The notes beneath the pieces were generated by a model. The model was not told where the DNA came from and did not search any database. It worked only from the letters and a program-made list of their open reading frames with translations. From a virus: a DNA stretch of 38,767 nucleotides. Shown piece after piece: positions 1,838 to 34,758 of the stretch (position 1 is the stretch's first letter; the number at the start of each line of letters is the position of its first letter). The position numbers and the translations under genes were made by a program. The stretch spans positions 1 to 38,767 of the IMG/VR virus record IMGVR_UViG_3300043425_000152, one strand, 5' to 3'.

Positions 1838-3805
1838 TTAGAACCTCACTCTCAATTCATGTTCAAATTCAAATCCGTTAATAACATAATTTGTACTTGT
1901 TGATGTTACTGTTAAGCCCAAGTATTTACCCCATTGTTGAGCATCTGTTTTGTACAAAGTATAACCTAAACCACCAGCCCAACCAATTGTTATTCCAGAG
2001 TTATTACTCCAAGCAATAGTCGTTCCAGCAATATTAATCCAAGAAATAGTATTACTCAAAGTATAAATTGGACTTTGATTGGTTTCTGAATCTACTGTGA
2101 CATCTAAAACTGAACCTCCGTCACTTAAAGTAGCTTCAATAGCAAATTTAAGCGCTTGTTTTGTGCGGATAGGGTCTCCCATCGGCATAAGCGCTGTTTG
2201 AACCATTGTGTTAATGCTTGCGTTTGGATTGTCGTAAAACTGCACAAGGTTTGTGCCATTAGAACCATAAAGCTTAATTTTTCCATCCACAGGGATTGAT
2301 ACAATTGTTTTAATATCGTTCCCTTGGCTGGTGAAGAACCATTTTTTCTCAAAGAAAATGGCTTGGATATAGCGATAAGTACCATTATCGTCATATCTAA
2401 AATTAAACGCGGCGCAAAGAATATTATTGATTAAAACCTGGCCAGCAGTAATAGCAGTAGTATCAAAATCAATATTTTCAAATACTCCATCTAATGGGTC
2501 TGATAATTTGCTGGTGGTAGAACCAACAAGCGCATACACCCCAAAGTCATTCATAAATAAAACTGAACGGAAATAAGGGAAAATCGCATAATCTAGCTTA
2601 GAACCGACAGAAGCCGAGATATTGGTATTAGTAAACAGCGTTGTGCCAGTGTTTGTTACGCGAACGTCTGAGAATACGTTGATGCTATCTTCACCAAAAA
2701 TATACAGGAAGTTGTTTGCAGATAGAATCTGAACAATGTTTCCACGCAATGTGCTATCAGTTAAAACAATTGTGCCAGCTGAAACTGTTACAAAGTCGGT
2801 AGCTGAGCCAGCTGCGCTGTAAGAAATGTTACGTCCATTTGCAATCCATACACGGCCTGAGAATGATGCAATCCCAGTATTAGGCTGGTCATTCACAATG
2901 CCTTTAACAGCAGCGTTTGAACCGCCACCGCCAGTAATCGTAATGGTTAAATTGGCTACGTTTGTATATCCACTGCCAGGATTAGTAATCACTACCCCAG
3001 TAATTTGCCCACCAGAGAGAACAGCAGTCGCAGCAGCATTTGTGCCGCCCCCACCACTAATAGTGACAACAGTATTAGCGGCGTTAGTATAACCAGTGCC
3101 GCCATTTGTAACCAAGGCCGAAACCGTACCCGTACGGAAGTCCACAATACCTGCAATCGCTGTAGCACCAGAGCCACCTCCACCAGAAAATGAAATAGTC
3201 GGAGCGACTGTATAGCCAGAGCCAGCTTCCGTCAAAGAAATGCTTGTGACTACGTTTGCAGTGATTGAGCACGTTGCAGTAGCCTGAACGCCATTAGCAT
3301 CATTTGGAGCGCTTATAGTGATAGTTGGCGCTGAAGTGTACCCAGAGCCTCCAGCAGTGATAAAAATCGCGCCTACAGAGCCTACAGACACTAAGCTAGT
3401 GCCATCCCATGTAAAGTAGCCTTTAACTTCATCAAGAATTAAAGCTTGCGTGTTTTTCCATTGGCTAACATTAATGCCGCTTGTAGAAAAGAATCCAGGC
3501 GCAGCAATTGTGCCTTTAGTCTCAGTAACCACATCTACATACTCACAGCTACCATCAGCCTGAAAAGCAATTAAATAGTCGTTGTTATTAATATTGACTG
3601 CAAAAATTGCAAAAGCATCATCCGCAAAGGTAACGCCAGTATTTCTTGGAGCTTTAATAGATTTAAGGTTGCCGTAGCCGATTGGCATTAGATTTTCTAG
3701 CCAAGCAAACTCATTTTCATTAATGGCAGTACGGTTGGCTTTTGTATTAACGCCTTGAAACTGCTTAATTACTTGATAGGACTTTTTTTGCTCTATCGCG
3801 GCCAT
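1838..3805 (-). CDS. Phage stabilisation / tail tube protein with inserted repeat domain
   Basis: 655 residues. The opening (QVIKQFQGVNTKANRTAINE then FAWLENLMP) is typical of podoviral head-closure or tail proteins called stabilisation proteins, which play the part of T7 gp12. Residues 331-600 look like a beta-propeller: FVTVSAG, NFLYIFGEDSINVF, SVLFMNDFGVYALVG, WFFTSQG. Between residues about 146 and 304 sits an insertion of four Gly-rich repeats of roughly 42 residues. The start is three bases from the adaptor gene, matching the usual adaptor-then-tail-protein order. The family call is from sequence style and context. Confidence 0.7.
   Translation of the reverse strand: MAAIEQKKSYQVIKQFQGVNTKANRTAINENEFAWLENLMPIGYGNLKSIKAPRNTGVTFADDAFAIFAVNINNNDYLIAFQADGSCEYVDVVTETKGTIAAPGFFSTSGINVSQWKNTQALILDEVKGYFTWDGTSLVSVGSVGAIFITAGGSGYTSAPTITISAPNDANGVQATATCSITANVVTSISLTEAGSGYTVAPTISFSGGGGSGATAIAGIVDFRTGTVSALVTNGGTGYTNAANTVVTISGGGGTNAAATAVLSGGQITGVVITNPGSGYTNVANLTITITGGGGSNAAVKGIVNDQPNTGIASFSGRVWIANGRNISYSAAGSATDFVTVSAGTIVLTDSTLRGNIVQILSANNFLYIFGEDSINVFSDVRVTNTGTTLFTNTNISASVGSKLDYAIFPYFRSVLFMNDFGVYALVGSTTSKLSDPLDGVFENIDFDTTAITAGQVLINNILCAAFNFRYDDNGTYRYIQAIFFEKKWFFTSQGNDIKTIVSIPVDGKIKLYGSNGTNLVQFYDNPNASINTMVQTALMPMGDPIRTKQALKFAIEATLSDGGSVLDVTVDSETNQSPIYTLSNTISWINIAGTTIAWSNNSGITIGWAGGLGYTLYKTDAQQWGKYLGLTVTSTSTNYVINGFEFEHELRVRF
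2894..3370 (-). repeat. Four ~42-residue GSGYT repeats within the stabilisation protein
   Basis: The motif G-[ST]-GYT occurs at residues 153, 195, 237 and 278 of the protein at 1838-3805, spaced 42, 42 and 41 residues apart. Each is followed by a beta-rich stretch and a GGGG-containing turn (SGGGGSGATA, SGGGGTNAAA, TGGGGSNAAV); the first unit lacks the GGGG run. The units look like an inserted surface-exposed beta domain, perhaps for weak binding to cells or particles. Confidence 0.8.
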
Positions 3806-3807
3806 GT

Positions 3808-4653
3808 TTAATACCCATTGCCGTAAGCACTAGGAAGTCTTCGAGTGAATGTCGTTGACAACACTTGTTGGACAGCTTTGATATATTCCTGTTTAAAAAT
3901 CTCAGCTTCACCGTAGCTTTGCTCTTTGTATTTAGCAATGTAAGCAGCGTAGAATTTGACGCAAGAAGAGTATGGCTCTTTAATCTCATCGACTTCAAGA
4001 GAAGTGACTAATGGAGTTGGTTGAACCACTGTGTCGAGCTCCATTGGATAAACTTGGTCTGGCACTGGAGCGATATAAATTTGGCCTTGTCCATAAACAG
4101 AGAACACGACAGGGCGGCCAATGTAGTTTTGCCAAAAACGCACATCAGCATTAAATTGTGACCAAGGCATATAGCGTAATGGAATACGGCTATTCCCCCA
4201 GTAAATGTTGATATTCAAAATATCTAAAGTGTACAAACTATCTGGCAAAGCAGCATAGTTGATAATCTCAACAGGGCCAGCATAAGTTAAGCCAACGCCA
4301 CCGACAAAAAACTCAGTAGTTGGAGGGTATGCTAAACCAGTAGTTGGATATGGGATACCAGAATCATCACTTGTGCCAGCTGTGCTTACACGATAAATGT
4401 AAACATTGCTGAAAACATAGTCATCTTGATTGTAGTAAGTATTCGCTGCAAAAGGAGTTGGATTTCTACCGCCAGCAACAGGAGTTGTTGGGGTTTGTGT
4501 GACTTGAAGCTTACGCAAGCAGCCAGTATCTTGGACTGTGTGCTGACGGCCCTCGTTAATATAGTCTGTTAGCTCAGAATCGCTATAAAAGTTCCCGTTA
4601 GCATCATGCAAAAGCCTACGGACTTCTGTGATATATCCAGATAGTGTTGCCAT
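3808..4653 (-). CDS. Head-tail adaptor (connector) protein
   Basis: 281 residues. The N-terminus (ITEVRRLLHDANGNFYSDSE then LTDYINEGRQ) is the pattern of phage adaptor proteins that bind below the portal: a helix, a DxNxxFYSDxEL segment, then a second helix. Later segments (MPWSQFNADVRFW, VVFSVYGQGQIYIAPVPDQ, YPMELDTVV) fit the same family, as does a C-terminal helical region (YAAYIAKYKEQSYGEAEIFK). It lies between the capsid group and the stabilisation protein, where T7 gp11-type adaptors sit. Adaptor function is inferred from these patterns and position. Confidence 0.7.
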   Translation of the reverse strand: MATLSGYITEVRRLLHDANGNFYSDSELTDYINEGRQHTVQDTGCLRKLQVTQTPTTPVAGGRNPTPFAANTYYNQDDYVFSNVYIYRVSTAGTSDDSGIPYPTTGLAYPPTTEFFVGGVGLTYAGPVEIINYAALPDSLYTLDILNINIYWGNSRIPLRYMPWSQFNADVRFWQNYIGRPVVFSVYGQGQIYIAPVPDQVYPMELDTVVQPTPLVTSLEVDEIKEPYSSCVKFYAAYIAKYKEQSYGEAEIFKQEYIKAVQQVLSTTFTRRLPSAYGNGY

Positions 4654-6818: not shown

Positions 6819-7349
6819 TTATAGGCCGATTGGACGCGGATTTTTCCGCAATTCAGTCAACGCTTTTGCTGCTTCATCACGCGCACTTGCTACAGGATTT
6901 TTCCAGTATTTATTCAAGTCAAACTTGTTAATAGCACTTGGATTGTAACCAGTAGAAGTCGGAACAGCCGCTTGTTTCATCCATTGGAAGTATTCAGCAG
7001 CAGATTCGTGATTTGTAATACCTTTTTCAAGCATGATTTTTTCGACTTCTTCAACTTCAGCCTCATTACTAATCAAGTTTTTCTTGAGTAGGTTTTGACG
7101 GCGTTTGTTAAGCTCATCAACAGCATCACGCTCACGCAATCTAGCTTCCAGTTGCTCTACGCGAGAAGTTGATTCTTCTGCTCGGCGATGAGCATAGTCT
7201 TCAATTTCTAATTCTGGAATTGGCATATCTGGCTTAGCTTTTTTAGTTAAGCGCAGAAAGTCTTTGCGTGTGTTTGGATTTTCAGCCAATTGACGAGCAA
7301 GCAAAGCTAACTCATCACGGGCTTCTAAACTTAAATCTTCTAGTGACAT
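6819..7349 (-). CDS. Scaffolding protein
   Basis: 176 residues, highly charged and helical. Residues about 50-120 should form a coiled coil (AHRRAEESTSRVEQLEARLR and following). The C-terminal end is basic and short (LTELRKNPRPIGL), as in scaffolds whose basic tail binds the coat protein during procapsid assembly. It lies just upstream of the major capsid gene in transcription order. The call rests on composition, size and position. Confidence 0.75.
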   Translation of the reverse strand: MSLEDLSLEARDELALLARQLAENPNTRKDFLRLTKKAKPDMPIPELEIEDYAHRRAEESTSRVEQLEARLRERDAVDELNKRRQNLLKKNLISNEAEVEEVEKIMLEKGITNHESAAEYFQWMKQAAVPTSTGYNPSAINKFDLNKYWKNPVASARDEAAKALTELRKNPRPIGL

Positions 7350-7368
7350 ATCTTATCCCCTTATCTAA

Positions 7369-7554
7369 TTAGATAACTTTTTTGCCGCCGCTAGGTGGAA
7401 CTAAAGTCATCTTGTTTTTTGGGCCAGTTTTACCAGCCGCATCAAGACCACCAAATTCTGAGAAGCGTGGTGTGTTTACGATTTGACCGTTCATCTGATT
7501 GTTGTCAGTTGGGCGGCGTGGAGCGGCAGCGCCGCGTGGTTTAAATAAATCCAT
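7369..7554 (-). CDS. Small basic protein of the capsid module, function unknown
   Basis: 61 residues starting MDLFKPRGAAAPRRPTDNN. The ATG at 7554 is preferred over the upstream start at 7665, which would overlap the previous gene in another frame; an AAAGGA ribosome site precedes 7554. The protein is rich in Gly, Pro, Lys and Arg with little predicted structure. It sits between a proline-rich protein and the scaffold, so an assembly or minor head role is possible but unproven. Confidence 0.6.
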   Translation of the reverse strand: MDLFKPRGAAAPRRPTDNNQMNGQIVNTPRFSEFGGLDAAGKTGPKNKMTLVPPSGGKKVI

Positions 7555-14426: not shown

Positions 14427-14654
14427 GTCTTTCTCCTAATACGGTACTAACACATTAATACAAATAAATAGGAAATACAAGAAAAACGTATTTTTTTTTG
14501 GGGGGAAGAGAGTTGGGGCTCACGCACAAACGCAAGCGAAACCCATTCGAGTTGGGCATATAAATATAAAAACAAAATCACAGAATATGACCATATTTAT
14601 AAACCCATATTTATAAAATAATAATAATTAATATATATACACATATAAAAAATG

Positions 14655-14667
14655 GAGGGTTACCCTC
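14655..14667. promoter_or_regulatory. GAGGGTTACCCTC palindrome
   Basis: A perfect 6-base inverted repeat about one central base, the same geometry as the palindromes at 8074 and 18755 but a different sequence. On the minus strand it is followed by CATTTTTT, so it could also act as a short terminator for leftward transcripts that start inside the divergent region. Confidence 0.4.
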
Positions 14668-14930
14668 GAAGCTACGCGGAAAGGTTTTTAATTAAAAGTA
14701 AACGCGCGCAGTGTATATATCTTTCAGATGTATCGCTTTAAATATCGCCCTTATATATTTATTACATATTCACTACATATATTTATTAATAATTTATACC
14801 TTATATATATATATGTATTAATACACATATATTTATTAATATAAATATGTATTAATTCATATACTTATTAATATATATTTATTAATACATAAAAAAAATA
14901 TAAAACATATAAAAAAATATAAAAAATATG

Positions 14931-14960
14931 TTTACACAATTAATATTATAAGATTATAAT
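14931..14960 (+). promoter_or_regulatory. Rightward early promoter
   Basis: TTTACA (14931-14936) and a perfect TATAAT (14955-14960) are 18 bases apart, 35 bases before the ATG of the ArdC-like gene. The -10 box lies in the palindrome AGATTATAATCT (14951-14962). This sigma-70-type promoter should be read by host RNA polymerase at once after infection. Confidence 0.7.
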
Positions 14961-14994: not shown

Positions 14995-15852
14995 ATGACA
15001 ATCAATGTTTATCAACAAGTAACTGACAAAATTATCGAACAATTGGAAAAAGGCGCTTTACCGTGGCTTAAACCTTGGCAAGCGGATTCAAGCGCTGATA
15101 AAAACTTTATCACGCAAAAACCATATTCAGGTATCAACACTTTAATCTTAGGAATGGCGGGCTTTAGCAATCCTGCATGGGCTAGTTATAAGCAATGGCA
15201 AGAAAAGGGCTTTAATGTAAAGAAAGGCGAGAAAGCTACGCAAATTGTTTTCTTTAAACCTATGAGTAAAACAAAAACCAATGAAAGCGGCGAAAGTGAA
15301 ACGTCAAGCTTTGCTATCTTAAAAACCTATTCCGTATTCAATGCCGAGCAAACTGACGCGGAATTGCTACCGCTTGAAACTGAAAACACTACGCCATTTA
15401 ATCCAATTCCAGCAATTGAACAGAAAATAGCTGAAACGGGCGCTATTCTCAAACACGGCGGCGATAGCGCGTTTTATATGCCGTCAAAAGATTATATTCA
15501 AATGCCAAATGCAAGCGCTTTTAATTCTAAAGAGCATTATTACGCTACTGTATTCCATGAATTAAGCCATTGGACTGGCGCTAAGCACAGACTAGATAGA
15601 CAGCTTGACAAGGGTAGATTCGGCAATCCAGCTTATGCTTTCGAAGAGCTTGTGGCTGAAATTAGCGCCGCCTTCTTATGTGCTGATTTTAAGATAGAGG
15701 GTGATTTGCGCCATGCGGGCTATATTCAATCATGGTTAAAAGCTTGCCGTGACGATAATAAAGCAATATTTAAAGCGGCGGCATTAGCACAAAAAGCCGC
15801 TGATTATATTAAAGCGCAAAATGTAACAGTAGAAGTACAAGCGGCGGCATAG
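14995..15852 (+). CDS. ArdC-like antirestriction / ssDNA-binding metalloprotease-fold protein
   Basis: 285 residues, the usual length for ArdC. Residues 1-120 match the N-terminal ssDNA-binding domain of ArdC-type proteins: VYQQVTDKIIEQLEKGALPW, PYSGINTLIL, WASYKQWQEKGFNVKKGEKA and TYSVFNAEQT. Residues about 145-275 are a zincin-like domain with HELSHWTGAKHR (His188, Glu189, His192) and a downstream FEELVAEISAAFL that can give the third ligand. In plasmids ArdC protects incoming DNA from restriction. As the first rightward gene behind a strong promoter, it fits early protection of entering phage DNA. Whether it cleaves protein is unknown. Confidence 0.88.
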   Translation: MTINVYQQVTDKIIEQLEKGALPWLKPWQADSSADKNFITQKPYSGINTLILGMAGFSNPAWASYKQWQEKGFNVKKGEKATQIVFFKPMSKTKTNESGESETSSFAILKTYSVFNAEQTDAELLPLETENTTPFNPIPAIEQKIAETGAILKHGGDSAFYMPSKDYIQMPNASAFNSKEHYYATVFHELSHWTGAKHRLDRQLDKGRFGNPAYAFEELVAEISAAFLCADFKIEGDLRHAGYIQSWLKACRDDNKAIFKAAALAQKAADYIKAQNVTVEVQAAA

Positions 15853-16174: not shown

Positions 16175-16774
16175 ATGCAATTCACAATTAAAACCAATGA
16201 AGTAAAGGCGCTATTGTTATGCGCCGCTAAAAAAGATATCCGTGCTTATTTAAATGGCATTTACTTTGAAAGCAATACGCGCGGATTAACAGCAGTCTCA
16301 ACTGATGGACACAGATTGTTAGCTATTCAATTCGAGTTCAACGAAAGGCAAGGATTAAGCGCTATTTTGCCGCGTGAAGCTTTAGAGCGTGCAATTAAGA
16401 CTAAAGCCACAAGCTTAATCATCACGATTGAAGGCAATAGGTTTACGATTGATGACGGCGCGCAATCAATTGGGGGCTTGTTATTAGAGGGATTATTCCC
16501 TAATTGGCGGCGCGTGATACCTAGTGAAGTGAATGGCGAAGCTACAAGCTTTAACAATGACTACCTAGCAGACTTTGATAAAGCCGCACGCTTGATATGC
16601 GGAGGCAATTGCAAAGTACAGCATAACGGCGCTAGTAACAGCGCAATGATACGTTTTGCCGCTGATAACGTGCTCGGTGTTGTGATGCCATTACGCGATA
16701 GTTTTACTTATGACAACAAGCCGCCTTCTTGGGTGCAATCAGAGAAGACAGAAGCGCTAGAAGTAGCCGCTTAA
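16175..16774 (+). CDS. Mini sliding clamp, DnaN domain II/III-like
   Basis: 199 residues against about 366 for bacterial DnaN. Residues 22-52 (DIRAYLNGIYFES, AVSTDGHRLLAI) closely follow domain II of the E. coli beta clamp (VRYYLNGMLFE, VATDGHRLAV). LLEGLFPNWRRVIPSE follows DGRFPDYRRVLP at the end of domain II. The last domain is shortened, and VVMPLRD matches the C-terminal VVMPMRL that forms part of the partner-binding pocket. Domain I is missing, and about 23 residues follow the MPLR motif. It could form a ring from two-domain subunits, as PCNA does, or bind and block clamp partners. The leader is GAGGGGCTTTATTATG. Confidence 0.85.
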   Translation: MQFTIKTNEVKALLLCAAKKDIRAYLNGIYFESNTRGLTAVSTDGHRLLAIQFEFNERQGLSAILPREALERAIKTKATSLIITIEGNRFTIDDGAQSIGGLLLEGLFPNWRRVIPSEVNGEATSFNNDYLADFDKAARLICGGNCKVQHNGASNSAMIRFAADNVLGVVMPLRDSFTYDNKPPSWVQSEKTEALEVAA

Positions 16775-18450: not shown

Positions 18451-18565
18451 GCAATGCTATATATGCTATATGGATATGTAGAAATATAAGAATAGAAGTA
18501 TTAATAAAACGTAAGTTTTATTTATATATATTAATACATATACGATATGGGTATGGAAAATAAAG

Positions 18566-18608
18566 TTATCCACATTCTATCCACAGGTTATCCACAGACT
18601 TATCCACA
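18566..18608 (+). promoter_or_regulatory. Cluster of four DnaA boxes
   Basis: TTATCCACA occurs at 18566, 18588 and 18600, and CTATCCACA (one mismatch) at 18577. All face the same way and start 11, 11 and 12 bases apart, about one helical turn. The first, third and fourth match the E. coli consensus exactly. This could be a host-DnaA-dependent origin or a DnaA titration site. Confidence 0.9.
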
Positions 18609-18640
18609 AAGCCGTTTATTTTGTTTACGCGCGGATAGGC

Positions 18641-18667
18641 AAAAAAAAGCCCCACCGAAGTGAGGCT
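18641..18667 (-). terminator. Leftward terminator-like hairpin with TTCG loop
   Basis: On the minus strand AGCCTCAC-TTCG-GTGGGGCT forms an 8-bp stem with one mismatch and a stable TTCG loop, followed by eight T. It would end a leftward transcript, though no leftward gene lies upstream. It may insulate the origin or end an antisense RNA from the rightward arm. Confidence 0.65.
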
Positions 18668-18691
18668 AAAAAAATGCTAAGGAGCTCACTT

Positions 18692-18739
18692 ATGACAATA
18701 AGCAAGTGCAGTAACTATGACCGAAAAAATAATGATTGA
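18692..18739 (+). CDS. Possible 15-residue peptide
   Basis: MTISKCSNYDRKNND with an AAGGAG ribosome site seven bases before the ATG. Its stop overlaps the -35 box of the following promoter. The good ribosome site is the only support; it may be a chance frame. Confidence 0.25.
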   Translation: MTISKCSNYDRKNND

Positions 18740-18764
18740 CAATACAATTCTAATGCTCTACTGT
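18736..18764 (+). promoter_or_regulatory. Second rightward promoter
   Basis: A perfect TTGACA (18736-18741), 17-base spacer, then TACTGT (18759-18764), 35 bases before the ATG at 18799. It would drive the recombination genes independently of the first early unit. Confidence 0.7.
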
Positions 18765-18798: not shown

Positions 18799-18996
18799 AT
18801 GAAGTTCTGTATAGACTGTACCCACTTGCGCGTTACTGTATGCACTAATCCACGCTTGACGTACGTTGATTTAGTCACGGGAGTAAACAAGCAGTATTAC
18901 GCGGAAAATGCACGCGATTATGACCATTTATGCGGCAAGCAAGCTGAACACTTTGAGCAATTAGTTCCAGTTCCAATGCCAAATGAACCATTTTAA
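18799..18996 (+). CDS. Small Cys-rich (zinc-binding) phage protein
   Basis: 65 residues starting MKFCIDCTHLRVTVCTNPRL. Cys4, Cys7, Cys15 and Cys45 can form a zinc site. The pattern CxDCxH...CTNPR...DLVTG...R....CG is familiar from short phage proteins near recombination genes, with unknown role. It is the first gene after the second early promoter; leader CTAACGAGGGAATAACATG. Confidence 0.65.
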   Translation: MKFCIDCTHLRVTVCTNPRLTYVDLVTGVNKQYYAENARDYDHLCGKQAEHFEQLVPVPMPNEPF

Positions 18997-19036: not shown

Positions 19037-19939
19037 ATGGCTAATGATAGAAGTGATTTTGAACCAGCAGTAAGAAATAGCGCATGGTGGGCTAGTGACA
19101 GCCGCCAAGCAGTTAATGGCAAAGCAATTGAAGTGATTATGCAGAAGCAAGGCAAATTAGAAGCGCCTGATTTAAGTGGTATTGAGGCGGTACAAATGGG
19201 TCATGTGATGCAACCAATCATTGGTCAATTAGCACAAGAAAGACTAGGAATAGAATTAAAAGATGCGGACTATATGCTTACTCACCCCAATCATAGCTGG
19301 CTACGCAGTCACTTTGATTTTATTAGTGCTGATGGAAGCACGCTCGTTGAAGCGAAAAATTATAACGCTGGGGCTCGCAGTAAGTTTGACGTTGATGATT
19401 TACGCATACCACCAGCTGATTATGTTCAGATAGTTCATGAAGCCGCAGTTCACAATGTTGACAGAGTAGTGCTTGCTGTTCTGTTCGGCGGTCAAGAATT
19501 TCAGACGTTCGACTTCACAATCACAGAAGCTATGAAGGACGAAGTTATTAAGCAAATGGCTGTATTTTGGGGTCACGTTAATGCTCAGACATTGCCTGAA
19601 CCTGAAACGATTGAGCAGACCAAGCTTTTGTACCCTATCGAGAATGGTTTACGGATGCTCGCTAATCAACAGATTGAGCAAGGTGTTATGGCGCTCAAAG
19701 AGATTAAAGAAGTCATCAAGCAATACGAAGATAAAGCAGACCAAATTGAAGCTAAGCTACGCGCAATCATGGGCGATAATAGTGAATTAGTTTCAGTGGA
19801 TGGGCGCACGCTTATCTCATGGAAAAATAGCAAGCCAAGCAAGCGTTTCTCAGCTGATTTATTCAAAAGCGCGATGCCTGACATTTATGAACAATTTGTG
19901 GTGGAGCAAGCTGGCTCGCGCCGCTTTTTAGTGAAATGA
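19037..19939 (+). CDS. YqaJ/lambda-exonuclease-family recombination nuclease
   Basis: 300 residues. The PD-(D/E)XK core is visible: WLRSHFDF (Asp94), TLVEAKN (Glu105, Lys107), and ADYVQIVHEAAV (Gln131), the motif order of YqaJ-type viral recombinases. The C-terminal third is a helical region (IKEVIKQYEDKADQIEAKLR) followed by SWKNSKPSKRFSADLF, common to this group. The enzyme would chew 5' ends to give 3' tails for the RecT protein two genes downstream. The stop overlaps the next start by ATGA. Confidence 0.85.
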   Translation: MANDRSDFEPAVRNSAWWASDSRQAVNGKAIEVIMQKQGKLEAPDLSGIEAVQMGHVMQPIIGQLAQERLGIELKDADYMLTHPNHSWLRSHFDFISADGSTLVEAKNYNAGARSKFDVDDLRIPPADYVQIVHEAAVHNVDRVVLAVLFGGQEFQTFDFTITEAMKDEVIKQMAVFWGHVNAQTLPEPETIEQTKLLYPIENGLRMLANQQIEQGVMALKEIKEVIKQYEDKADQIEAKLRAIMGDNSELVSVDGRTLISWKNSKPSKRFSADLFKSAMPDIYEQFVVEQAGSRRFLVK

Positions 19940-20121: not shown

Positions 20122-20291
20122 GCACAATCACAATTACCATTACAGATGACGAAGCAAACGAAGCAGTCAATGTAAAACTAGAGATAGACCCACCAGCAAT
20201 AGCAGGTGTTCCAATGACAGGCGCACAACAAGTCGCTGTTCACGCTATGCAAGCGATTAATTCTATTACGAGGGGGCAGACAAATGACTAG
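20118..20291 (+). CDS. Small acidic protein, function unknown
   Basis: 57 residues starting MSTITITITDDEANEAVNVK. Overlaps both neighbours: ATGA at the start and eight bases into recT at the end. The Thr/Ile-rich beta start and the helix GAQQVAVHAMQAINSI suggest a small fold. The pattern TITITDDEAN is seen, as I recall, in small phage proteins beside RecT. Confidence 0.55.
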   Translation: MSTITITITDDEANEAVNVKLEIDPPAIAGVPMTGAQQVAVHAMQAINSITRGQTND

Positions 20292-21096
20292 CCTAGTTCC
20301 AGTAAATGATATGAGCGTCATGGCTGAAAGCATTGTTAAGTCGGGTTTTTACGGCTTTAAAACAAAAGAACAGGTCATGGCAGTGATGTTGGTCGCACAA
20401 GCTGAGAATAAGCACCCAGCAACCGTTGTGCAAGAGTATGACATCATCCAAGGCAGACCAGCGCTAAAGAGCCAAGCTATTCTCGCGCGTTTCCAACTAG
20501 CTGGCGGCAAGGTTAAATGGAATGAAGTTTCTCGCACTAAATGTTCAGGCACGTTCACGCATGAAGCTGGCGGTTCAATTACTGTCGAATGGACAATTGA
20601 CATGGCTAAGCAAGCTGGACTGTACCGCATGGGTTCAGGATGGGAAAAGTACCCAGAAGATATGCTTAGAGCTCGCGTAATTAGTCGCGCAGTACGTTCA
20701 ATTTACCCAGCTTGTATTCTAGGTCACTACGCAGTAGAAGAGGTCATGGACTTTGACGTTAAACCAGCGCCAACTCCGATTAAAGACATGGGCGAAGTAG
20801 AGATTTTGAATGATGAGCCCGAAGAGCCAATGGGTATTCCGTTAAATATTCCTGATGGTGAAGGCGCAAAGGTTTACAGCCGCCATAACTCACTTGGCGA
20901 GTGGGTCGATGCCTATGCCGAGATTTGCGCTAAGATTTATGCGAGTGCAAAGATTAAGCTAGAAGAGAAAGACGAGCGTATTCATGCTATCCGTCACGCT
21001 AATGAAGAGTTTATTAGCACATGGGAAGCAGACGATATGATTAGACTTACTTCAGCTGTCGTTAAAGCCCGAAAAGACAATCTCAAGGCAGAATGA
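20284..21096 (+). CDS. RecT-family single-strand annealing protein
   Basis: 270 residues. Segments typical of RecT are present: FKTKEQVMAVMLVAQAENKH, PATVVQEYDIIQGRPALKSQ, AILARFQLAGGKVKW and MLRARVISRAVRSIYPACIL with VEEVMDFD after it. These form the core of RecT, which coats single strands and anneals complementary DNA. The C-terminal 80 residues are acidic and variable. With the YqaJ nuclease it forms a two-part recombination system able to join terminal repeats into concatemers. Confidence 0.88.
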   Translation: MTSLVPVNDMSVMAESIVKSGFYGFKTKEQVMAVMLVAQAENKHPATVVQEYDIIQGRPALKSQAILARFQLAGGKVKWNEVSRTKCSGTFTHEAGGSITVEWTIDMAKQAGLYRMGSGWEKYPEDMLRARVISRAVRSIYPACILGHYAVEEVMDFDVKPAPTPIKDMGEVEILNDEPEEPMGIPLNIPDGEGAKVYSRHNSLGEWVDAYAEICAKIYASAKIKLEEKDERIHAIRHANEEFISTWEADDMIRLTSAVVKARKDNLKAE

Positions 21097-21553: not shown

Positions 21554-21823
21554 ATGGCACAACACAATGCACAACCAGGAAAAGGCGTGTTGTTTACGCA
21601 GAAGGAAAAGAAAAACGATAGAGCACCCGACTTACGCGGACAGATTATGCTTTTAGAGGACGCAAAAGCTGGGGATATTATTAAAATTAGCGCTTGGGAA
21701 AGAACGACTGCAATGGGGAAGCTTATTAGCCTATCGCAAGACACTTGGAAACCTGACCGCAACCAAACTCAGTACCCTGTAGAAGTAAACAGTGGTAAGA
21801 ATGAGGATGAAGTGCCGTGGTAA
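21554..21823 (+). CDS. Candidate SSB-like protein with acidic C-terminal tip
   Basis: 89 residues starting MAQHNAQPGKGVLFTQKEKK. The centre (APDLRGQIMLLEDAKAGDII, KISAWERTTAMGKLISLS) could be a small OB-like beta barrel. The last residues, NEDEVPW, resemble the DDDIPF tip by which bacterial SSB recruits partners. It lies between RecT and RusA, where an SSB would be expected. The OB-fold and SSB assignment are inferences. Confidence 0.5.
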   Translation: MAQHNAQPGKGVLFTQKEKKNDRAPDLRGQIMLLEDAKAGDIIKISAWERTTAMGKLISLSQDTWKPDRNQTQYPVEVNSGKNEDEVPW

Positions 21824-22191
21824 TCACTTTAAATTTGCCTTATCCGCCTTCTATCAACTCCTATTGGCGTGCAAATGGTCATAGGCGCTTTATATCGAAG
21901 GAAGGACGCAAATTTAGAGAGGATGTAGTCGCTTATTTGCTAGAAAACCAAATTCCTAATCTTGGAACGATACCATTGCAAGTGACTATTGCTTTACGCC
22001 CACGCGATAAGCGTAAAACCGATATTGATAATCGTATTAAGGCTGTTTTAGACGCTTTAGAGAGTTTTGTCTTTGAAGACGATTGTCAGGTCGAAAAGCT
22101 AGTCGTTTTCCGCGCAGAACCAATAAAAGGCGGCAAATGCTTAGTAGTTATAGAACCCCACCAGCCAAAAGGTGAGCTAGCGCCCTGCTAG
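21817..22191 (+). CDS. rusA: RusA-family Holliday junction resolvase
   Basis: 124 residues, standard length. The N-terminus VITLNLPYPPSINSYWRAN is the RusA signature. The catalytic acids are in RKTDIDNRIKAVLDAL (Asp69, Asp71, Asp79) and FEDDC (Asp88, Asp89); Lys75 is also kept. It cuts branched DNA, which would clear recombination intermediates before packaging. A GTG start at 21817 overlaps the upstream gene and fits the family N-terminus. Confidence 0.92.
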   Translation: MVITLNLPYPPSINSYWRANGHRRFISKEGRKFREDVVAYLLENQIPNLGTIPLQVTIALRPRDKRKTDIDNRIKAVLDALESFVFEDDCQVEKLVVFRAEPIKGGKCLVVIEPHQPKGELAPC

Positions 22192-33355: not shown

Positions 33356-34462
33356 TTAGACCCTTGTGTCAAATACCGCTGCTGCGTATATATTCCCCAT
33401 TCCAGCGGCTAAACTTAAAACGCACCCATCAGGAACATCACTTTTCTCAGATAAGAATATCTCATCATGTTCAGTTCTGTTCAATATCTCAGGAACGTAA
33501 CCTTTTTCCATATCGTCAAATAACATTAACGATTCAAGCAATCCACTAGCACCCATTGTATGACCAATTCTTTGCTTGTAAGAAGTAGCCACAAAGTTAC
33601 CTAATGATGCCAATAAAGCGTTTCTTTCGCTATTGTTGTTAGACTTAGTTCCAGTACCATGCGCCTTAACAATCTTAATTTCTTTAGGATGCACGCTAGA
33701 AGCAAATAAAGCACCCTCAATAGCTTTCTTAAATCCTTCACCGTCTTCACGTTGGCCAATGGCGTTTGTTGCATTTTCGCTACAAGCCCAAGCGCCTTTA
33801 AGTTCAGCAATCGGCTTGTTAGTCAAAATATGCTCTGCTTCAAATACTGCTAGAGCTGCGCCTTGTCCAACATAAAAACCGTAATTTGTTTTATCAAAAG
33901 CTGAAGGCTTAATTGTTTTAGCTTCCTCTTCTGACAAAATCGCTTTAGATTCACCAAAGAAGTCTAATGTTGAATTAGCCACTTGGTCTTCTACAGCAAG
34001 CACAATCACACGATTGTAGCCATAATTCTTAATCAGTGTTTGCACATCCATCAGCACTTTAAGGCCAGAAGCACACGCTGAGCTATCAGTCGTTACCATG
34101 CCATCTACGCCAAAAGACTGCGCCACTCGTCCTGCATACACTTGAGTAAGTGAAAACGGCAAAAACTTATAAACGTAGCTCAATCTGGTTGGCTTAACAT
34201 TCCGAGGATTAATCCCTGCAAAATTTGCATTACCAGCGGCTAGAATAAATGCCGTCTTACCAACTCCATCTTCTCTTAACTTAGTCGCTAATTCAGCGTC
34301 AAGCACCTTATCTGCTACTAAGTGAGGAACATAAAACATTCCTGTATTTACTCGCTTGTACGTCTCAGGAAACCAATGTACGGTTTGAGGAAACGCTAAA
34401 TCATCTAAAAACTCTGTATATTCTGTTGCTGCTTTTCTTGCATGGGTCAGAAAAATTCTCAT
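33356..34462 (-). CDS. Beta-ketoacyl-ACP synthase (FabF/KAS II-like)
   Basis: 368 residues against about 412 for FabF. The catalytic triad is intact: Cys130 in TDSSACASGLK, His268 in KAHGTGTKSNN and His301 in RIGHTMGASGLLE, with Lys296 in the place of FabF Lys335. GNYAG-type glycines occur near the end (SLAAGMGNIYAAAVF). The N-terminus is about 33 residues shorter up to the catalytic Cys, and MRIFLTHARKAAT replaces the usual start. It would condense acyl groups with malonyl-ACP. Its ATG overlaps the stop of the phage ACP gene by four bases, so both are made together, and it sits within virion genes. Confidence 0.9.
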   Translation of the reverse strand: MRIFLTHARKAATEYTEFLDDLAFPQTVHWFPETYKRVNTGMFYVPHLVADKVLDAELATKLREDGVGKTAFILAAGNANFAGINPRNVKPTRLSYVYKFLPFSLTQVYAGRVAQSFGVDGMVTTDSSACASGLKVLMDVQTLIKNYGYNRVIVLAVEDQVANSTLDFFGESKAILSEEEAKTIKPSAFDKTNYGFYVGQGAALAVFEAEHILTNKPIAELKGAWACSENATNAIGQREDGEGFKKAIEGALFASSVHPKEIKIVKAHGTGTKSNNNSERNALLASLGNFVATSYKQRIGHTMGASGLLESLMLFDDMEKGYVPEILNRTEHDEIFLSEKSDVPDGCVLSLAAGMGNIYAAAVFDTRV

Positions 34463-34740
34463 TTTATCTGCTCCAAAGCATCCTCAAGGCTGCTAGGTTC
34501 TTTAGTTTTATGAGCTTCAATGAAATCATAAATTTCTTGCGGCGTTGTCGGCAGCATTGTCTTAGCGACTTCTTCTTCAATTCCATATAGCTCACTATAG
34601 TAAACACAGATTAAAAGTACATCTAAACTGTCTAATCCGTTGTCAACAAACTTAGTATCAAGGCTTTCTATCGGTGTGTACGACAGATAAGCTGGTTTCG
34701 CTACACGCGCAATCGCGTGGAATAATTCCAATTTGTCCAT
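34459..34740 (-). CDS. Acyl carrier protein
   Basis: 93 residues from the ATG at 34740 (GGGGAT ribosome site; 34752 gives a four-residue extension). KFVDNGLDSLDVLLI holds the DSL motif; Ser38 would carry phosphopantetheine. The first helix and DTKFVDNG are typical, and the C-terminal tail (KTKEPSSLEDALEQIK) is longer than in host ACPs. No phosphopantetheinyl transferase gene is seen, so a host enzyme must activate it. Overlap with the ketosynthase gene indicates a working pair. Confidence 0.88.
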   Translation of the reverse strand: MDKLELFHAIARVAKPAYLSYTPIESLDTKFVDNGLDSLDVLLICVYYSELYGIEEEVAKTMLPTTPQEIYDFIEAHKTKEPSSLEDALEQIK

Positions 34741-34758
34741 TTTTATCCCCAAAAATAG

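Follow-up and report, generated by a model that had tools for sequence, protein, structure and literature searches.

DnaA boxes in replication origins and in phages

The common view of tailed phages is that they supply an initiator or helicase loader of their own. Phage 186 needs host DnaA. In E. coli, DnaA is bound in vivo mainly at pairs of boxes 2 or 3 bp apart, and its regulon as a transcription factor is compact (PMC11317965). Work on T. maritima indicates that box orientation is tunable (PMC10316083), and in chromosomal unwinding modules the elements follow the order box-spacer-trio (PMC8287927). The origins of plasmids P1, F, RK2, and pSC101 contain DnaA boxes (PMC4980987), a DnaA box near the primosome-assembly site of ColE1 may load DnaB (PMC3640518), and plasmids carrying DnaA boxes raise the initiation mass in E. 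coli (PMC5835720). For phages, a full-text search of partial coverage for a proven origin dependent on host DnaA returned only a bioinformatic prediction in a Pseudomonas phage (PMC11512268) and a remark on T5, whose injection stop signal has been described with repeats, palindromes, and DnaA boxes (PMC13250531).

The window analyzed here is the whole 38,767-base stretch of an IMG/VR virus record from a freshwater phage, and the genome appears near-complete because the record ends almost overlap. Its box array can be compared with each of these systems. As in bacterial oriC (BUS), consensus TTATCCACA boxes are closely spaced beside an AT-rich tract; however, the phage tract is 5' of the boxes, whereas the chromosomal trios and AT-rich element are 3' of TTATCCACA. 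The phage also differs in having a hairpin within the AT tract and no dnaA/dnaN pair, and neither a trio run nor an IHF consensus was seen. The ColE1/pBR322 primosome-assembly site is alike in its DnaA binding by a single-strand initiation element and its proposed DnaB loading, but replication of ColE1 is RNA-primed and its site has a single box, while the phage has an array without a known primer. In the iteron plasmids P1, F, RK2, and pSC101, the origins likewise place host DnaA boxes by AT-rich DNA, yet they depend on iterons and a Rep protein, and neither was recognized in the phage. The T5 stop signal shares the combination of palindromes and DnaA boxes on a phage but belongs to a different phage type and gene context, and T5 has its own replisome. 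In the gokushovirus L338 (KT264804), DnaA boxes are similarly found in an intergenic region beside AT-rich DNA; unlike in the window, they stand in canonical order, with five boxes, a trio-like CTACTACTACTACTAT run, and then an AT-rich stretch at 3621-3800. This region resembles a whole unwinding module of the chromosomal type, carried here by a phage with single-stranded DNA.

Boxes of this kind are spread more widely among phages. Seven to eight DnaA-like boxes are present at 7257-7382 of Escherichia phage P483 (L337) and at 4329-4437 of Vibrio phage nt-1 (L336). A 32-base query at E <= 1 matched 373 phage records versus 47 plasmid records; T5-like phages are prominent among the box matches, some of which lie inside terminal repeats, and a three-box query was also matched by rodent-gut microviruses. 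T5-like, T7-like (P483), and nt-1-like phages encode their own replisome. Phages with their own replisome thus carry DnaA-box matches too, which leaves room for titration and other uses.

The box array and the adjacent AT-rich tract

Four DnaA boxes are found on the plus strand of the window, at 18566..18574 (box 1, TTATCCACA), 18577..18585 (box 2, CTATCCACA), 18588..18596 (box 3, TTATCCACA), and 18600..18608 (box 4, TTATCCACA). Box 2 has one mismatch and the other three are perfect. The steps are 11, 11, and 12 bp, equivalent to gaps of 2, 2, and 3 bp on a single strand, and the observation made by the sequence-only reading is confirmed. Its judgment that such an array is very unlikely by chance also holds: under a first-order Markov model of both strands, allowing box steps of 10-13 bp, 5e-13 arrays of four same-strand boxes with at least three perfect are expected per window, and the expectation for three perfect boxes is 2e-10 per window. 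Single boxes with at most one mismatch number 16 in the window against 10.3 expected, at most a mild enrichment; therefore, the signal is the array. A second cluster of at least three boxes with at most one mismatch was not found anywhere in the window. The array is real and far beyond chance, and since its gaps are those preferred by E. coli DnaA in vivo, it should be a strong DnaA site.

The 110 bases 5' of box 1 (18456..18565) are 79% AT, compared to a window average of about 59%, in agreement with the AT-rich tract of about 110 bases that had been described from the letters. This tract, a candidate unwinding element, falls within the least stable 0.4% of window positions, and in all six genomes tested it falls within the least stable 1.1%. 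Two features of an oriC-type origin are thus present, a cluster of at least three boxes and adjacent AT-rich unstable DNA.

An inverted repeat, TATTAATAAAAC-GTAA-GTTTTATTTATA (18499..18526), is located within the tract, with 12-bp arms, one mismatch, and a 4-base loop, its center 53.5 bp 5' of box 1. In the window alone the repeat is marginal against dinucleotide shuffles (p 0.047); by the same measure, 13 of 16 nonredundant sequences, the window counted, reach p <= 0.05. In most relatives the AT tract contains such a repeat, with arms of 8-13 bp and a short loop, and in nonredundant box-positive relatives the hairpin center is usually 48-64 bp 5' of the first box. The exceptions are L103, in which the best repeat is 84.5 bp from box 1, L114, in which the repeat is not significant against dinucleotide shuffles, and L166 and L159, which have no perfect hairpin within the searched loop range and whose p values are void. 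The arms vary by lineage (TTAACCAATATGTATTGGTTAA, ATAGTTACTTGTAAGTAACTAT, and ATAACTTACTTCGTAAGTTAT) and the pairing is maintained. The presence of this hairpin in most nonredundant box-positive relatives is a new observation. It may have a structure-specific role; alternatively, it could be an operator palindrome that has drifted and is recognized by a dimeric regulator. Three box-less relatives (L047, L049, and L088) also have such a hairpin, about 610 bp before the exonuclease.

No IHF consensus was found near the array, and no DnaA-trio run was seen by eye in the 16 nonredundant sequences. In the box-less L084, many trio-like TAC/TAT triplets, for example TTCTATTCTACTACTATGTCTATTCTACG, are found upstream of the exonuclease without TTATCCACA boxes. 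Promoter-like matches in the window are weak and no more numerous than in shuffles, and none lies between the hairpin and the boxes. On the minus strand, a terminator-like hairpin computed in the window at 18648..18667 would end leftward transcripts immediately ahead of the array, and a similar sequence can be read by eye in relative L018 (L018/G001). Minus-strand promoter-like and terminator-like matches at 18640-18742 bracket what may be a leftward small RNA of about 65 bases; similar sequence occurs in L018, and the promoter match does not exceed chance. Searches for tRNA and Rfam families gave no matches. GC skew at third codon positions shows shifts that are not specific to box-bearing phages, as box-less relatives scatter alike.

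Gene neighborhood and a truncated sliding clamp

The array is embedded in an early block on the plus strand. This block begins with an ArdC-type antirestriction protein (14995..15852) and continues with a short sliding-clamp homologue. On the other side of the array, a short conserved cysteine-containing protein (18799..18996) is the first gene of a recombination operon, which includes a YqaJ/RecE-like exonuclease (19037..19939), the anchor gene for our comparisons, a RecT-like annealing protein (20284..21096), an SSB-like protein (21554..21823), and a RusA-like resolvase (21817..22191), all on the plus strand. Megablast of the whole early region against known phages gave no match, and plasmid matches to ArdC are below 60% identity and scattered over many taxa. 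The least stable DNA of the window is at 14556-14960, 5' of ArdC, where ATATATTTATTA is present four times; the AT-richness of this region is common to relatives. Within the late gene block, a beta-ketoacyl synthase homologue (33356-34462, Pfam E 4e-18) adjoins an ORF of 97 aa (34459-34752) that contains a GLDSLD motif and resembles an acyl carrier protein, and relative G002 has ORFs from the same clusters as both.

The phage had been said to lack a recognized polymerase, helicase, or primase. This stands with respect to Pfam, by which no helicase, primase, polymerase, or Rep initiator was found among 56 ORFs (17 families matched), the PHROG comparison covering the best 25 of 54 families; however, a sliding-clamp-like gene about 2 kb from the array had been overlooked. 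An iteron plasmid-type origin does not fit the window, as no Rep family occurs in the 56 ORFs and the repeats are DnaA boxes.

The overlooked gene (16175..16774, plus strand) encodes a truncated beta sliding-clamp homologue of 199 aa, consisting of domain II and a shortened domain III: it matches domain II of bacterial clamps and, weakly, the end of domain III. AlphaFold predicts a clamp fold (best model mean pLDDT 79, with two of five models good), and a Foldseek comparison with the E. coli clamp (E 1.5e-12) agrees. The label 'RusA-like resolvase' given to this family by PHROG 3007 looks wrong. Phages of Salmonella, Escherichia, and Klebsiella encode relatives of the clamp at about 32% identity, and these proteins have often been labeled RusA-like resolvase. 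Across 11 homologues, no variation is seen in the TDGH motif, P109, R112, P116, or the C-terminal MP. We take these residues to be the peptide-binding pocket, which seems to be kept, its matching positions being invariant or almost invariant. The three complete domains of a full ring in the dimer are not present in the 199-aa protein. Several box-bearing relatives do not have the clamp gene.

Distribution of the array among relatives

An IMG/VR scan with the exonuclease yielded 80 loci. As seen in these loci, the array is present in all 13 assessable loci with an exonuclease identity of at least 68%; at 61-67% identity it is present in only 1 of 42 assessable relatives and absent from the other 41. 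A pattern scan for three boxes at such gaps returned at least 120 viral stretches. Of these pattern-fetched loci, 26 match the exonuclease of the window, 25 of them at 46% identity or more; the exception, L198, has an exonuclease of 28% identity and boxes in the opposite orientation. Because the box pattern was the means of fetching loci L096-L215, how perfect their boxes are and how they are spaced does not count as independent evidence, and the unbiased figures for conservation are those from exonuclease-fetched loci or the same contigs. Six nonredundant arrays, taken from the window and from contigs fetched with the exonuclease, have 20 boxes in total, of which 19 are perfect, while identity in the adjoining 40-bp flanks is near the level of chance, at 40% on the left and 29% on the right. 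Every close relative that could be assessed, and many a distant one, thus has the array, and the side of the AT tract does not change; the array survives the refutation set by the sequence-only reading, a lack of conservation among relatives.

In arrays anchored by the family exonuclease, the direction is the same throughout and the AT tract is at the 5' end. Across the nonredundant set, the array lies 355 to 2187 bp from the exonuclease; therefore, the module is not tied to the following gene. When the array is mapped on an exonuclease tree built from 35 nonredundant sequences, at least 4 gains or losses are required, versus 12 with shuffled labels, which indicates that the trait is inherited and that loss, gain, or replacement occurred a few times.

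The array is missing from about half of the exonuclease tree as sampled, and also from two annotated Manatee Spring records with related terminases (83% and 79% identity). DnaB helicase is absent from 25 of 26 relative records, including all exonuclease-bearing ones tested, whether boxed or box-less. DnaB as a substitute for missing boxes was rejected, as the box-less records tested are also without it. The only DnaB match is in the record of L163, a locus fetched by the box pattern with no exonuclease match and only an ArdC match listed. Because 41 of the 42 relatives at 61-67% identity have no array and no exonuclease-bearing record tested has DnaB, the family can replicate without the array.

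Possible roles of the array

The box stretch is probably a landing pad for the host protein that starts replication. That it is a DnaA-dependent site, probably the phage origin, recruiting host DnaB is, from comparative sequence, a proposition on which we are evenly divided, and the best of several readings. Host DnaA would bind cooperatively to the three or four consensus boxes at gaps of 2-3 bp, and the adjacent AT-rich tract with its hairpin would melt or extrude. The DnaA filament would then hand the host DnaB-loader complex to the opened tract, and host primase and Pol III would copy the phage, whose own contribution would be only recombination functions (exonuclease, RecT, SSB, and RusA). 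The array, its conservation, its constant neighborhood, and the lack of recognizable replication enzymes are observed; from these we infer DnaA binding, melting, helicase loading, and a start of synthesis at the module. A DnaA-dependent helicase-loading origin is favored because of the 2-3 bp preference of E. coli DnaA, the tunable box orientation, and the precedent of the ColE1 box. The host-type origin put forward by the sequence-only reading is therefore upheld in part: it fits a conserved array beside an AT tract, but the tract is 5' of TTATCCACA, opposite to the canonical side, with no trio run or IHF consensus, and about half of the tree is box-less, the box-less records tested being without DnaB. 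The less stable AT-rich repeat region 5' of ArdC also counts against it.

That region (14556-14960) could itself be the true origin, with the boxes as an accessory. It has the least stable DNA of the window and the four ATATATTTATTA copies, but it sits between divergent gene blocks and may be a mere promoter region, and the repeat is absent from the relatives looked at, so this is quite improbable. The array could alternatively act as a sink, in which accumulating phage copies bind host DnaA, block host initiation, and free the replisome, while phage replication itself starts elsewhere or by recombination. The arrays of nt-1 and P483, own-replisome phages in which an origin role is unlikely, agree with this, as do the box-less relatives, which replicate somehow, the best DnaA binding at pairs 2-3 bp apart, and the raised initiation mass caused by box plasmids in E. 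coli (PMC5835720). A pure sink, however, could do without constant orientation, without confinement to one site, and without a one-sided AT tract with a hairpin at near-fixed distance, and each array has just 3-4 boxes; we consider it unlikely.

It is also improbable that the boxes are operators through which the level of host DnaA controls an early promoter located in the AT tract. DnaA is known as a transcription factor (PMC11317965), and in L114 and L192 the array is about 11-14 bp before a start codon; against this, the sequence behind the array varies by relative, with the exonuclease 355 to 2187 bp off, and the promoter-like matches of the window are weak and at shuffle level, with none between hairpin and boxes. 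A signal for DNA entry or anchoring is very improbable. It would recall the T5 stop signal (PMC13250531), given the prominence of T5-like phages among box matches and the position of palindrome and boxes after an antirestriction gene block here too, but among the annotated families we noticed no pre-early gene of the T5 type.

An extension of the DnaA-dependent origin is doubtful though conceivable. Tailed phages of this kind would replicate from a compact module of a structure-specific hairpin, AT tract, and unidirectional box array that recruits host DnaB without a phage initiator, and in the clamp-bearing branch the truncated clamp, with a pocket and no ring, could draw off Hda or other partners, leading to ATP-DnaA and repeated firing. 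The link from clamp to DnaA through Hda is speculation.

If the DnaA-dependent origin is true, this phage family would rely on host DnaA, and its replication would be coupled to the cell cycle of the host. Moreover, the relatives, both boxed and box-less, would then represent a natural set of compact DnaA modules for studying the minimal requirements of DnaA-driven helicase loading.
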